Source of the DNA: Candidatus Tectimicrobiota bacterium
GTDB taxonomy: Bacteria > JACPUC01
Assembly (NCBI GenBank): GCA_016192455.1
Contig: JACPUC010000030.1
Span: 62,001-126,000, forward strand
Direction of reading: 5' to 3'
DNA: 64,000 bases
Part shown: positions 36,660-57,259 of the stretch, in pieces
Numbering within the stretch: position 1 is the stretch's first letter
Layout: the number at the start of each line of letters is the position of its first letter
Translations under genes and position numbers: made by a program
The notes under the pieces: generated by a model
What the model was told of the DNA's origin: nothing
Databases searched by the model: none
What the model saw: the letters and a program-made list of their open reading frames with translations, nothing else

Positions 36660-38205
<1,546 letters not shown>

Positions 38206-38624
38206 TCGCTGGTTGGTAGGTGAAGTGTAGGCCGCGCGCGCCGCAAAATCAAGCACGGAGTGCGGCATGCGGGGCCTCGCCGCGATACCCGGCCAGCGGC
38301 GCATGCTGAGCGGTCGCACGGCGCCGCCGACGCGCCTCGAGTCTTCGGCGGCACGAGACCAGCGAGCGCCGAGGCCCACTGCTTTCTCCCGGCCATCCCC
38401 CCAACACTCGCCCCCCAGCCCCGCGCCGATCTCCCATGGCGGGGTGTCCGCCGTTGCGTTATCTTTAGCAAAACTCGCCGCCAGGACAGGCGGCGAGGTT
38501 CCTGGCGCTCCAACCCGACGACCGCAACGGCGAGTCTCTCAAGGCCGGCGCGGCGGTGGAGGGCTGGCGGTGGCGCGCTGTCCGCGCGCGGCGGAGCCTG
38601 CCGCCGGCGGGGAGGGAACGGGGC
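38206..38624. other. Divergent intergenic region
   Basis: 419 bp between the thiC leader and the divergent double-cupin gene. It contains the thiC promoter below. No gene seen. Confidence 0.5.
38224..38252 (-). promoter_or_regulatory. Probable thiC promoter
   Basis: On the minus strand TTGATT (38252-38247), 17-bp spacer, TACACT (38229-38224). Transcription would begin just before the TPP riboswitch, a good positional fit. Confidence 0.6.
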
Positions 38625-40655: not shown

Positions 40656-40769
40656 GGGAGGGCGACCATGCCGCGGAGGCGCGTCCGGCGCCCACATTTT
40701 CAGATTTTCTGCTTGCGCGGCGCCTGGGGATGTGCTAAAGGAGGGTCACGCAAGAAAGGAGGTGGTCCG

Positions 40770-40811
40770 ATGGCATTACCGTGTAGGACCTGCGAGGTGA
40801 CTGAGCGGTAG
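40770..40811 (+). CDS. 13-residue peptide ORF inside the structured RNA
   Basis: ATG at 40770 is preceded by AAGGAGGTG, fully complementary to the 16S rRNA 3' end, at a spacing of 5 nt. It encodes MALPCRTCEVTER and a TAG stop at 40809-40811. The peptide has a C-x2-C pair. Its last codons overlap the 5' arm of P1, and its stop abuts P2, so translation would open both helices. Whether the peptide itself or the act of translation matters cannot be decided. Confidence 0.6.
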   Translation: MALPCRTCEVTER

Positions 40812-40886
40812 CGCTTTGCGCCGCGACTCGGCGAGATTGCAAAGCGCCAGCGCAACAGCGCTATTGCAATCCAATCAGTTTCACCG

Positions 40887-40954
40887 ACCCTGAAAGCGCC
40901 GCGGTAAGGTCCCCGCGGCCGGCTCCGCCGTAAAAGCTTTCAGGGTTCTTTTTT
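40887..40954 (+). terminator. Intrinsic terminator of the structured RNA
   Basis: ACCCTGAAAGC (40887-40897) pairs with GCTTTCAGGGT (40936-40946), enclosing a second hairpin GCCGCGG/CCGCGGC (40898-40919). The T-run TTCTTTTTT (40946-40954) follows directly. Works on the plus strand only. Confidence 0.85.
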
Positions 40955-54477: not shown

Positions 54478-55065
54478 CTACTTCACCTCCGCGAGCAATT
54501 TCCTGAACAGCTTCAGCGACTCCTCGCCGTCCCACTGGCGGGGGCCGATGCCCATGCCGACGAGGTCGCCGCGGTGGTCGATGATGAAGGTGGTGGGGGT
54601 GCCCCGCACCATGTAGAGAATCTGCGCCGCCCCCTCCGGGTCGAGGAGGATTGGGAAGGGGATGGCGTGCTTCTTTACGAAGGGGGCCACCGCCGACTTC
54701 CCCTCGCGGTCGATGGCAACGCCCACCAGCACGAACTTGTCGTTCTTCAGGAGCTCCGACAGCTTGATGAGAGAGGCACGCTCTCGCGCGCAGTAGGGTC
54801 ACCAGGTGGCCCAGAAGTTGAGGAGCATCACCTTGCCCTTGAAGTCGCTCAGCTTCACCGTCTTGTCGTCGAGGTTCGGCAGCGCCACGTCCGGCGCCTG
54901 GATGCCGGGCGGCGCCGGGTGCAGACCGAGCGCGCCCAGCTCCTCCTTGTAGGGGTTCTCCGGAGTCGGCGGGGTCTCGGCGACCGCGCGCCGGCCAAGC
55001 AGGGCGAACGCGAGCAGCACGGCACACGCTACCAGAATGACGTTACGCCGCTGCACTGATGCCAT
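54478..55065 (-). CDS. TlpA-like thioredoxin, predicted selenoprotein (W-U-P-Y-C)
   Basis: Exported thioredoxin-fold protein of 195 residues if TGA 54801-54799 is read as selenocysteine. ATG 55065 follows AAGGAG. A hydrophobic leader (VILVACAVLLAFALLG) is followed by the TlpA/AhpC-type core: APDVALPNLDDKTVKLSDFKGKVMLLNFWATW, then U89-P-Y-C, then LIKLSELLKNDKFVLVGVAIDREG and RGTPTTFIIDHRGDLVG. In relatives the U position is the attacking Cys of W-C-P/x-x-C. The frame is otherwise intact to a TAG at 54480-54478. A SECIS-like hairpin lies 14 nt downstream. It would reduce disulphides or selenenyl/metal bonds in the periplasm. Confidence 0.85.
54771..54785 (-). promoter_or_regulatory. Putative bacterial SECIS hairpin in tlpA-like gene
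   Basis: GAGAG and CTCTC pair around the 5-nt loop CGUGC; the loop starts 18 nt after the UGA and has G as second base, as bacterial SECIS rules ask. Confidence 0.6.
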
Positions 55066-55316: not shown

Positions 55317-55910
55317 TCAATGCAGGGATTTCGGCCCCACGCGGATCACCGTCATCATGAGGTCGTCCTCGCCGATGCTCTTGATGGTGTGCCGCCAGTT
55401 CGTGGGGACGGTGAACCAGGAACCGGCCGGAACGGCTTTCACGACCTCCCCCTTGGCATCCATCAAAAGCCCCAGGCCCTGCTCGATGTAGCAAATCTCC
55501 GTGGTGCTCATGATCCCCACATTTCCCCCGTTGGGGATGCGCGCCTTGCGGACGGAGAACCAGACGTCATTGCCGAAGTCGACCTTGGCGATGAGCTTCG
55601 CAAAGAACTTCTCTCCCATGCCGGTCGGCTGAAAGGGGAGGGCTTCATCGGGAAGCACGACCTGCTTCTCGAAGCTGCTGATGAGGAGGTCGGGGTCGGG
55701 CACCTTGCCCATCTCCATCGTAGGCATTGGTGGTGTGCGCATCGGTTGCCCGGCGTCGGGTTGCATGCTCTGCATCGGCTGCTGCATCGGCATGGACGAG
55801 GGCGCGCCCGGTTGTCTGCGCGGCATGCTCGGCATTCCCTGCGCCAAGACGCCCGCGGAGCCGAGCCACACCACGAGCATTCCCACCACACTCGCGAGAA
55901 CCCCCCTCAT
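55317..55910 (-). CDS. Exported Met/Pro-rich cupin-type protein
   Basis: 197-residue secreted protein. ATG 55910 follows AGGGGAG and opens a signal peptide (GVLASVVGMLVVWLGSAGVLAQ). The next 45 residues are Met-, Pro- and Gln-rich (about ten Met, with PMQQPMQSMQP and PMPTMEM), suitable for binding soft metals such as copper, silver or mercury (inference). The C-terminal 120 residues form a single cupin barrel: NVGIMSTTEICYIEQGLGLLMD and AGSWFTVPTNWRHTIKSI. It is encoded 49 bp after the MerP-like selenoprotein gene on the same strand. Confidence 0.75.
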   Translation of the reverse strand: MRGVLASVVGMLVVWLGSAGVLAQGMPSMPRRQPGAPSSMPMQQPMQSMQPDAGQPMRTPPMPTMEMGKVPDPDLLISSFEKQVVLPDEALPFQPTGMGEKFFAKLIAKVDFGNDVWFSVRKARIPNGGNVGIMSTTEICYIEQGLGLLMDAKGEVVKAVPAGSWFTVPTNWRHTIKSIGEDDLMMTVIRVGPKSLH

Positions 55911-55961: not shown

Positions 55962-56282
55962 TTACTCTCCGGCGGGTTTCTCCGCGGCCCCTCCGGGATC
56001 GCTGGACAGAACGCCGGCCCGGAACCCCACGGACCTGAGGGCGGCGATCATCTGCGCCGCGCCGACGCGGGCTGGGTCGAATGCCACCTCGGCCTTCGCC
56101 TCGCGCAAGCTCACCTGCGCCTTCTCAACTCCGTCGAGCCTCTCCAAGGCTCGTTGAGCGATGATCACTCACGTCCCTCACGTCAGCCCCTCGACGCGCA
56201 GGCTCAGGTTCTCCGCCAGCGCGGCGGCGCTGCCGAGACCGAGGATGCTGGCCGCCAAGAGCAGCGTGACCCAGGTGCGCAT
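55962..56282 (-). CDS. Periplasmic MerP-like metal-binding protein, predicted selenoprotein (T-U-G-T-U)
   Basis: 106-residue exported HMA-domain protein if two TGA codons (56180-56178 and 56171-56169) are read as selenocysteine. It has a signal peptide, MRTWVTLLLAASILGLGSAAALA, then L-S-L-R-V-E-G-L-T-U35-G-T-U38, followed by the standard HMA helix and strands: ALERLDGVEKAQVSLREAKA and EVAFDPARVGAAQMIAALRSVGF. The family has G-M-T-C-x-x-C at that spot, so both metal ligands are replaced. The only hairpin downstream lies 22 nt after the second UGA and 31 nt after the first, within range of both. It should capture Hg(II) or another soft metal and hand it to MerT. The gene starts 2 bp after the zinc-ribbon gene stop. 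Confidence 0.85.
56135..56153 (-). promoter_or_regulatory. Putative bacterial SECIS hairpin in merP-like gene
   Basis: CGAGCCU and AGGCUCG form a perfect 7-bp stem with loop UGGAG (G second). The loop begins 22 nt after the second UGA, 31 nt after the first. Confidence 0.7.
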
Positions 56283-56284
56283 GC

Positions 56285-56569
56285 TCACTCCTCCCTCTCC
56301 AGGGCGAAGACGCCGTAGGCATGCAGCAGGCGAAACGTCTCGCCGCAGTGCTCGAGGCGGTCGCCCGCGGCGGCCTCATCCGGCAGGGTGAGCATGGTCC
56401 CGCACGCCGGACAGCTCGCGCGCTTGACGATCATGAGGCCGTACCGACCGTGTCGCTCCGAAACTCGGAACAGGAGCCCGGCTCAGTTGGCGCACTCGAA
56501 GCCCTCGCCCGGGCGCGCCCGCGGCCCAAGCTCGACCTCTTGCCCTCAGCCAGGACAGAGCGCCTTCAT
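56285..56569 (-). CDS. Small zinc-ribbon protein, predicted selenoprotein (C-P-G-U, C-A-N-U)
   Basis: 94-residue cytoplasmic protein if TGA 56548-56546 and 56485-56483 are selenocysteine. ATG 56569 follows GGGAGG. It begins M-K-A-L-C5-P-G-U8-G-Q-E-V and continues G-F-E-C26-A-N-U29-A-G-L-L-F, so in both knuckles of an otherwise ordinary zinc ribbon the second Cys is Sec. A second cluster, C53-P-A-C56 and H74-C75-G, is all cysteine. The frame is open to a TGA at 56287-56285 that is the natural stop, as the next gene starts 2 bp on. Both Sec codons have plausible hairpins downstream. It could be a metal sensor, chaperone or mercury trap. Confidence 0.8.
56455..56471 (-). promoter_or_regulatory. 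Putative bacterial SECIS hairpin for U29 of the zinc-ribbon gene
   Basis: GUUCCG and CGGAGC pair (one G-U) around loop AGUUU, G second; the loop starts 17 nt after the UGA. Confidence 0.6.
56508..56530 (-). promoter_or_regulatory. Putative bacterial SECIS hairpin for U8 of the zinc-ribbon gene
   Basis: CUUGGGC and GCCCGGG pair (two G-U) around a 9-nt loop, CGCGGGCGC, starting 22 nt after the UGA. The region is so GC-rich that competing folds exist. Confidence 0.45.
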
Positions 56570-56600: not shown

Positions 56601-56834
56601 CTACAGGTGCAGGAGCTGCTTCAGCCGCCCCAGGTCGAAGCCCACGACCACCTCGTCGTCCACTGTGATCACCGGCACGGCAAGCCGACCCGTCTTCGCC
56701 TTCAGCTCGGCGATGGCGCCTTGGTCCGCTTCGACGTTCCGCTCCACGAAGGCGATCTGGTTCTGTGAAAGGAACTCTTTCACCTGTTTGCAGGGCCTTC
56801 ACGTAGGGCTGGTAAAGACCATGACGTTGGGCAT
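56601..56834 (-). CDS. Glutaredoxin-like protein, predicted selenoprotein (T-U-R-P-C)
   Basis: 77-residue glutaredoxin/NrdH-type protein if TGA 56801-56799 is read as selenocysteine. ATG 56834 follows GAGGGAG. M-P-N-V-M-V-F-T-S-P-T-U12-R-P-C15 is the usual N-terminus with Sec in place of the first redox Cys. The rest, KEFLSQNQIAFVERNVEA, then PVITVDDEVVVGFDLGRLKQLL, carries the TVP-type cis-proline and family C-terminus. A strong hairpin (7 bp) follows. It sits between the MerT-like and zinc-ribbon genes. It would act as reductant for selenols or for a mercury-selenol complex (inference). Confidence 0.87.
56765..56783 (-). promoter_or_regulatory. Putative bacterial SECIS hairpin in glutaredoxin-like gene
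   Basis: GUGAAAG and CUUUCAC form a perfect 7-bp stem with loop AGUUC (G second), 22 nt after the UGA. The cleanest SECIS candidate of the cluster. Confidence 0.75.
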
Positions 56835-56875: not shown

Positions 56876-57259
56876 TCAGTTCATCGCGCCTTGCAGCAGC
56901 GCGGCGGTTGCGTCCGGGAAGAGATCGAGCGCCAGCGCCGCCAGCAGCGCCAGGGTGGCGCCCAGCAGCATAACGAGGTTGAGGCGCGCCCCGATGAAGC
57001 GGCATGCCACCGCGCGGCAGCGTCGGCGCTCCCTGAAGTATAACGCATACGAGCCAAGAACTCCGAACACGCCGGCTGGCAGGAAGATGGAACGGTACTG
57101 CATCGTCGTGCCCATGAACGCCCCTGTCCCAAGCCCCGTGAGCACGACGAGAAGCGGCAGGACGCAGCAGAGCGAGGCGACGAAGGCCGCCCCTAGGCTC
57201 ACCGCGCCCACTCCGAAAGCGCGCAGGCACTCTCGACCGGCATGCAGGGATACTCTCAT
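56876..57259 (-). CDS. MerT-like mercuric-ion membrane transporter
   Basis: 127-residue inner-membrane protein with three hydrophobic helices. The first holds the vicinal cysteine pair typical of MerT (GAAFVASLCCVLPLLVVLTG, C31-C32). The loop between helices 2 and 3 has C81-R-A-V-A-C86, matching the second cysteine pair of MerT. The third helix is NLVMLLGATLALLAALALDL. MerT takes Hg(II) from MerP and passes it inward. No Sec codons here. AGGGGA precedes ATG 57259. It is the first gene of the selenoprotein operon; MerR and MerA are not in the window. Confidence 0.82.
   Translation of the reverse strand: MRVSLHAGRECLRAFGVGAVSLGAAFVASLCCVLPLLVVLTGLGTGAFMGTTMQYRSIFLPAGVFGVLGSYALYFRERRRCRAVACRFIGARLNLVMLLGATLALLAALALDLFPDATAALLQGAMN

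Follow-up and report, generated by a model that had tools for sequence, protein, structure and literature searches.

A gene of 94 codons on the reverse strand of a 64,000-nucleotide stretch of a Candidatus Tectimicrobiota genome (the window) carries TGA at codons 8 and 29, which raises the question of whether both encode selenocysteine (Sec, U) and, if so, what Sec would do in a small zinc ribbon. A sequence-only reading had placed C-P-G-U and C-A-N-U in the two knuckles of the ribbon, and translation with TGA as U indeed gave CPGU and CANU, in a protein with the outline MKALCPGUGQEVEL...FECANUAGLLFRV...SCPACG...EHCGETFRLLHAYGVFALEREE. The gene and its two Sec codons are as follows.

56285-56569, reverse strand: predicted zinc-ribbon selenoprotein gene, from translation, homologues and predicted fold; TGA stop at 56285-56287
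56546-56548, reverse strand: Sec codon U8 (TGA), at the second-ligand position of the first knuckle, where homologues have C or U
56483-56485, reverse strand: Sec codon U29 (TGA), at the second-ligand position of the second knuckle, where homologues again have C or U

The window genome (G000; 4.46 Mb in 31 contigs, 88% complete) was found to possess the Sec machinery of bacterial selenoprotein producers: a tRNA-Sec(UCA) scoring 75.5 bits, a selB gene above cut-off and, in the position immediately upstream of selB, a gene which we take from its sequence, by eye, to be selA. Among 39 tRNA matches in this genome no other tRNA had a UCA anticodon, and tRNA-Cys had GCA. Since tRNA-Sec(UCA) and selA-selB are present and no other tRNA has this anticodon, UGA is read as Sec. 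No tRNA-Trp was seen among the same 39 matches, the incomplete assembly being the probable cause. A tRNA-Sec above 70 bits was also found in 17 of the 20 genomes carrying the ribbon, the exceptions (G031, G146 and G157) being incomplete assemblies.

Searches for the ribbon found it in four of 145 genomes spanning the bacterial domain (the window's own, G137, G072 and G031) and, by alignment search, in 14 of 18 genomes from the phylum of G137, where the named matches in an alignment scan of the closer subset were mostly Nitrospinota-labelled MAGs, including isolate UBA8248. A wider sample of 386 genomes contributed three further carriers (G360, G379 and G167), and no relative was found in a plasmid collection. 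The resulting set comprised 21 homologous loci in 20 genomes and six lineages (G000, G031, G072/G360, G137, G167 and G379), each counted as a phylum of its own since searches by phylum gave separate sets. Homologues with Cys or Sec at residues 8 and 29, without which the sequence-only reading would fall, were found throughout these 21 loci: the two positions were UU in 7, UC in 3, CU in 2 and CC in 9, with G155 (CLSC/CWNC, read by eye) scored as CC. Both UGA codons thus align with Cys or Sec. Sec occupied 19/42 of these second-ligand positions against 0/84 of the other conserved Cys positions (C5, C26, C53 and C56), and the ribbon tree, which is poorly resolved, required at least seven Cys/Sec state changes. 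Among five close genomes, pN/pS was 0.18 for the codons separating the two TGAs and 0.25 for those past the second. From these ratios and the Cys/Sec pattern, translation therefore appears to run past both codons, and each position to switch between Cys and Sec independently. Judged from sequence, we conclude that both in-frame UGAs of the ribbon gene are Sec codons and that the ribbon is a real selenoprotein family spread across several bacterial lineages.

Bacterial SECIS elements have been described as having a loop of 3-9 nt with G in one of the first two positions, a stem of 4-16 bp, a spacing of 16-37 nt and an energy of -7.5 kcal/mol or lower (PMC13188914). These constraints were satisfied after 17 of the 19 ribbon UGAs, sites which share descent, against 416/1653 (25%) other codons of the same genes; the comparison of Sec with Cys at the same columns reached only p = 0.023. 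Sec and Cys sites could not be told apart by whole-region folding energy, and constraint-based hairpins were used instead. Both UGAs of the window ribbon passed, although each hairpin is individually weak in this GC-rich genome, while the true stop of the gene failed (-2.8 kcal/mol).

56507-56531, reverse strand: SECIS-like hairpin for U8, loop GGGC, -15.3 kcal/mol; alone p = 0.08 against synonymous shuffles
56454-56472, reverse strand: SECIS-like hairpin for U29, loop GUU, -8.6 kcal/mol; alone p = 0.15 against synonymous shuffles

The window protein fell below every curated Pfam and NCBIfam cut-off, and the models matched by 17/17 aligned ribbon members were those of LysW. Structure prediction with Cys at the U positions, as the sequence-only reading had proposed, was run with AlphaFold2 and gave a confident fold (pLDDT 89, pTM 0.65) of the LysW zinc-ribbon type. 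The five best solved-structure matches to the model were all LysW, Foldseek returned LysW alone at high probability, and residues 1-49 of the model matched 5eio_C with Z 7.1, 46 residues being superposed at 1.4 A. From this superposition, the N-terminal ribbon therefore keeps the four LysW zinc-ligand positions (C5, U8, C26 and U29). The C-terminal cluster of the window protein consists of C53, C56, H74 and C75, that is CPxC + HC; some homologues share this arrangement, and most of the largest clade have CPxC + HD. The second cluster had been read as all-Cys, and Sec was indeed never found at C53 or C56, but it is a degenerate half-ribbon and not an intact one; the C-terminal half resembles another ribbon of LysW type from which the second knuckle has been lost. 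Most likely, the window gene encodes a cytosolic double zinc-ribbon selenoprotein of which the second ribbon is degenerate.

The LysW/ArgW amino-group carriers (NF041070, PF21344) agree with this protein in fold and in where, and how far apart, the four N-terminal zinc ligands stand. The window protein nevertheless scored below their cut-offs (48.2 against 75 bits for NCBIfam, 25.4 against 27 for Pfam) and differs in its tandem ribbons, in Sec at two ligands and in lacking the EDWGE carrier tail, ending instead in ALEREE, with varied tails among homologues. Unlike LysW/ArgW, it has no lysine or arginine biosynthesis genes as neighbours.

The neighbours in the window, all on the same strand, are in order MerT-like, Sec-glutaredoxin, ribbon (U,U), MerP-like (U,U), cupin and TlpA-like (U) genes, and TGA stands at cysteine positions in the glutaredoxin, MerP-like and TlpA-like genes too.

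56876-57259, reverse strand: MerT-like membrane protein, a weak match (NCBIfam MerT 26.5 bits, cut-off 150; Pfam MerT 17 bits)
56601-56834, reverse strand: Sec-glutaredoxin (PTURPC), Sec codon at 56799-56801; adjacent to the ribbon in 21/21 loci
55962-56282, reverse strand: MerP-like metal-binding selenoprotein (LTUGTU), NF041115, 108.5 bits, above the cut-off of 95
55317-55910, reverse strand: cupin-like protein, no Sec, weak Pfam cupin matches only
54478-55065, reverse strand: TlpA/ResA-like thioredoxin (WUPYC), Sec codon at 54799-54801

One hairpin (-11.1 kcal/mol) is common to the two UGAs of the MerP-like gene. That of the glutaredoxin narrowly missed the SECIS energy limit (-6.4 kcal/mol) and was present at the same place in 16/16 loci tested; for the TlpA-like gene no hairpin lay within the published limits (-4.0 kcal/mol). 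Elsewhere in the window, a TPP riboswitch was found at 38098-38209 on the reverse strand (67.5 bits), and the sequence at 40748-40953 on the forward strand matched Ms_IGR-5 (52.3 bits), an actinobacterial sRNA family not expected outside Actinobacteria.

The glutaredoxin (UxxC) adjoins the ribbon in all 20 other loci as well. At least one mer-type gene (MerR-, MerT/F-, MerP- or MerE-type) was found at 13 of these 20, so that 14 of 21 loci including the window show the linkage to mer genes, and the co-occurrence with a MerP-like gene suggested by the sequence-only reading was borne out to that extent. The MerF of G072 scored above cut-off (90 against 50), and MerE-like and MerR-like neighbours had good scores yet fell under theirs. 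The fullest run, in G379, consists of a MerR-family regulator (ZntR scoring slightly higher than MerR), MerT-like, Sec-glutaredoxin, ribbon (CC), MerP-like (UU), an ECF sigma factor and MerE-like; a MerA with a C-terminal SCCAG (Cys-Cys) tail, split in the assembly, lies about 5 kb from the ribbon. No MerA was recognised beside the window ribbon gene. In another contig of the same genome (G000:C22:15159-16484, L131), a flavoprotein of the MerA/dihydrolipoamide dehydrogenase type reads GGSCVNSGUTPTK, with an in-frame TGA where the CxxxxC flavin disulfide would have its second Cys, and may be a further selenoprotein of G000. Two unrelated lineages have ECF-type sigma factor genes near the pair of glutaredoxin and ribbon (L125, G379:C6:3000-22000; L123, G031:C64). 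Recognised mer genes were absent nearby in 7 of the 21 loci, five of the seven belonging to one genus in the phylum of G137 (L112, L113, L114, L116 and L127), where the glutaredoxin-ribbon pair stands without them. Loci lacking mer genes have a thioredoxin reductase-like gene after the pair, and such a gene lies downstream of it in 12 loci of this phylum.

The ribbon is apparently a new, uncatalogued selenoprotein family with Sec on two of the four zinc-ribbon ligands. A 2026 review (PMC13188914) lists 119 prokaryotic selenoprotein families and subfamilies, including the MerP-like UxxU protein (NF041115) and an FmdB type with two Sec, and the window family has no entry among them. The ribbon is likewise unlisted in Haft and Tolstoy 2025, Haft and Gwadz 2023 and the 2007 Olavius work as far as these are summarised in that review, and a literature search for a zinc-ribbon selenoprotein or for a Sec mer operon found none. 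The claim of the sequence-only reading that no such family has been described therefore holds as regards NCBIfam and Pfam matches above cut-off and the 119 families, but it has to be qualified by the precedent of the FmdB zinc-ribbon selenoprotein (TIGR02605; PMC2398784). This, the nearest precedent, is likewise a zinc ribbon of small size for which Sec has been predicted, as CxxU (PMC2398784) or with two Sec as UxxU (PMC13188914). It is a separate family, to whose model the window protein scored 10.3 bits against a cut-off of 31.3, and it is known from two GOS sequences with no mer/glutaredoxin operon reported (PMC2398784). NF041115 shares with the ribbon the operon, Sec at predicted metal ligands and the mer association, but has a ferredoxin-like HMA fold and a single UxxU and is periplasmic. 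The SAO and Tso operons likewise hold several selenoproteins each, and SAO is tied to organometallic chemistry; in the part of the review that treats them (PMC13188914) they have different components, and no zinc ribbon of the window kind is listed there.

What the ribbon does can be approached through its neighbours, and we give somewhat better than an even chance to its being a cytosolic protein that binds Hg(II) or another soft metal and transfers it in partnership with the Sec-glutaredoxin, the metal being suggested by the context. Selenolates bind Hg(II) more strongly than thiolates, and of the two Cys ligands in a rubredoxin-type knuckle the second lies more exposed, an arrangement that would favour ligand exchange. 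Gene context and this selenium-mercury chemistry would together favour a soft-metal over a structural-zinc site, the choice that the sequence-only reading had made. SelB and tRNA-Sec would read both UGAs as Sec, with a separate downstream hairpin for each, and the LysW-type N-terminal ribbon would form a four-ligand site of Cys5, Sec8, Cys26 and Sec29, with Sec second in each knuckle. Hg(II) or another soft cation would enter through MerP(UxxU) and the MerT-type channel and be taken up by the S2Se2 site of the ribbon, and would then be exchanged with the Sec-glutaredoxin or released through its action, or the ribbon would be reset by it. Where MerA is present the metal would pass onward to reduction; otherwise it would be held or passed along. 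The Sec machinery, the selected open frame, the two-position Cys/Sec exchange, the hairpins, the LysW fold and the glutaredoxin and mer neighbours speak for this reading; the loci with no mer gene, the several mer-type calls under cut-off, the G379 regulator that leans towards ZntR, the want of MerA near the window and the existence of Cys-only members, in which the job is done without Sec, speak against it. The more specific proposal, that a single zinc ribbon with two thiolates and two selenolates is a selenium-strengthened acceptor of Hg(II) or other soft metals, working with the Sec-glutaredoxin in the mer-type operons that several uncultivated lineages carry, is tentative, and we put it somewhat short of even.

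The main rival, unlikely in itself and slightly under half as probable as metal binding, is a metal-free redox relay in which the two CxxU motifs would be selenol/thiol pairs cycling through selenylsulfide bonds on the ribbon as a scaffold, shuttling electrons between a client and either the Sec-glutaredoxin or thioredoxin reductase. CxxU is widespread as a redox motif (PMC13188914), the invariable pairing with a Sec-glutaredoxin fits such a relay, and so does the persistence of the family where Cys substitutes for Sec. The downstream thioredoxin reductase-like gene also fits, but in those 12 loci of one phylum it may be mere phylum-wide synteny. A redox pair alone would not need all four LysW zinc-ligand positions to be retained, and the symmetry of Sec across both knuckles and the recurrence of mer-type genes nearby also argue against it.

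An ordinary structural zinc ribbon, serving as a protein-protein adaptor in which Sec replaced Cys opportunistically and with little effect in Sec-rich genomes, is improbable. LysW-like ribbons are known to bind structural zinc and to act as carriers, Cys and Sec forms coexist in the family, and nearly all carriers of the ribbon possess Sec machinery. Neutral drift, however, would not be expected to confine Sec to two of the four ligands while sparing the other cysteines, and Sec, which is costly to make, has recurred, as the state changes on the tree indicate. It is very improbable that the TGAs are true stops, sequencing errors, marks of a pseudogene or Cys codons read by a variant tRNA: TGA does also work as a stop in G000, since the ribbon gene ends in it, but recurrence at the same two positions in independent genomes and purifying selection downstream rule out a pseudogene or sequencing error, tRNA-Sec as the sole UCA-anticodon tRNA rules out UGA as Cys, and TGA never occurs at the remaining conserved Cys codons.

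Gene callers that take UGA as a stop will miss or truncate the ribbon protein. The family also delineates a mer-type operon that recurs and encodes as many as four selenoproteins. The majority of selenoproteins known so far are redox enzymes resembling thioredoxin; in this family Sec takes two of a zinc ribbon's four ligand positions. Because CC, CU, UC and UU versions of the ribbon occur naturally, the contribution of selenium to a protein metal site would be directly testable in this family.
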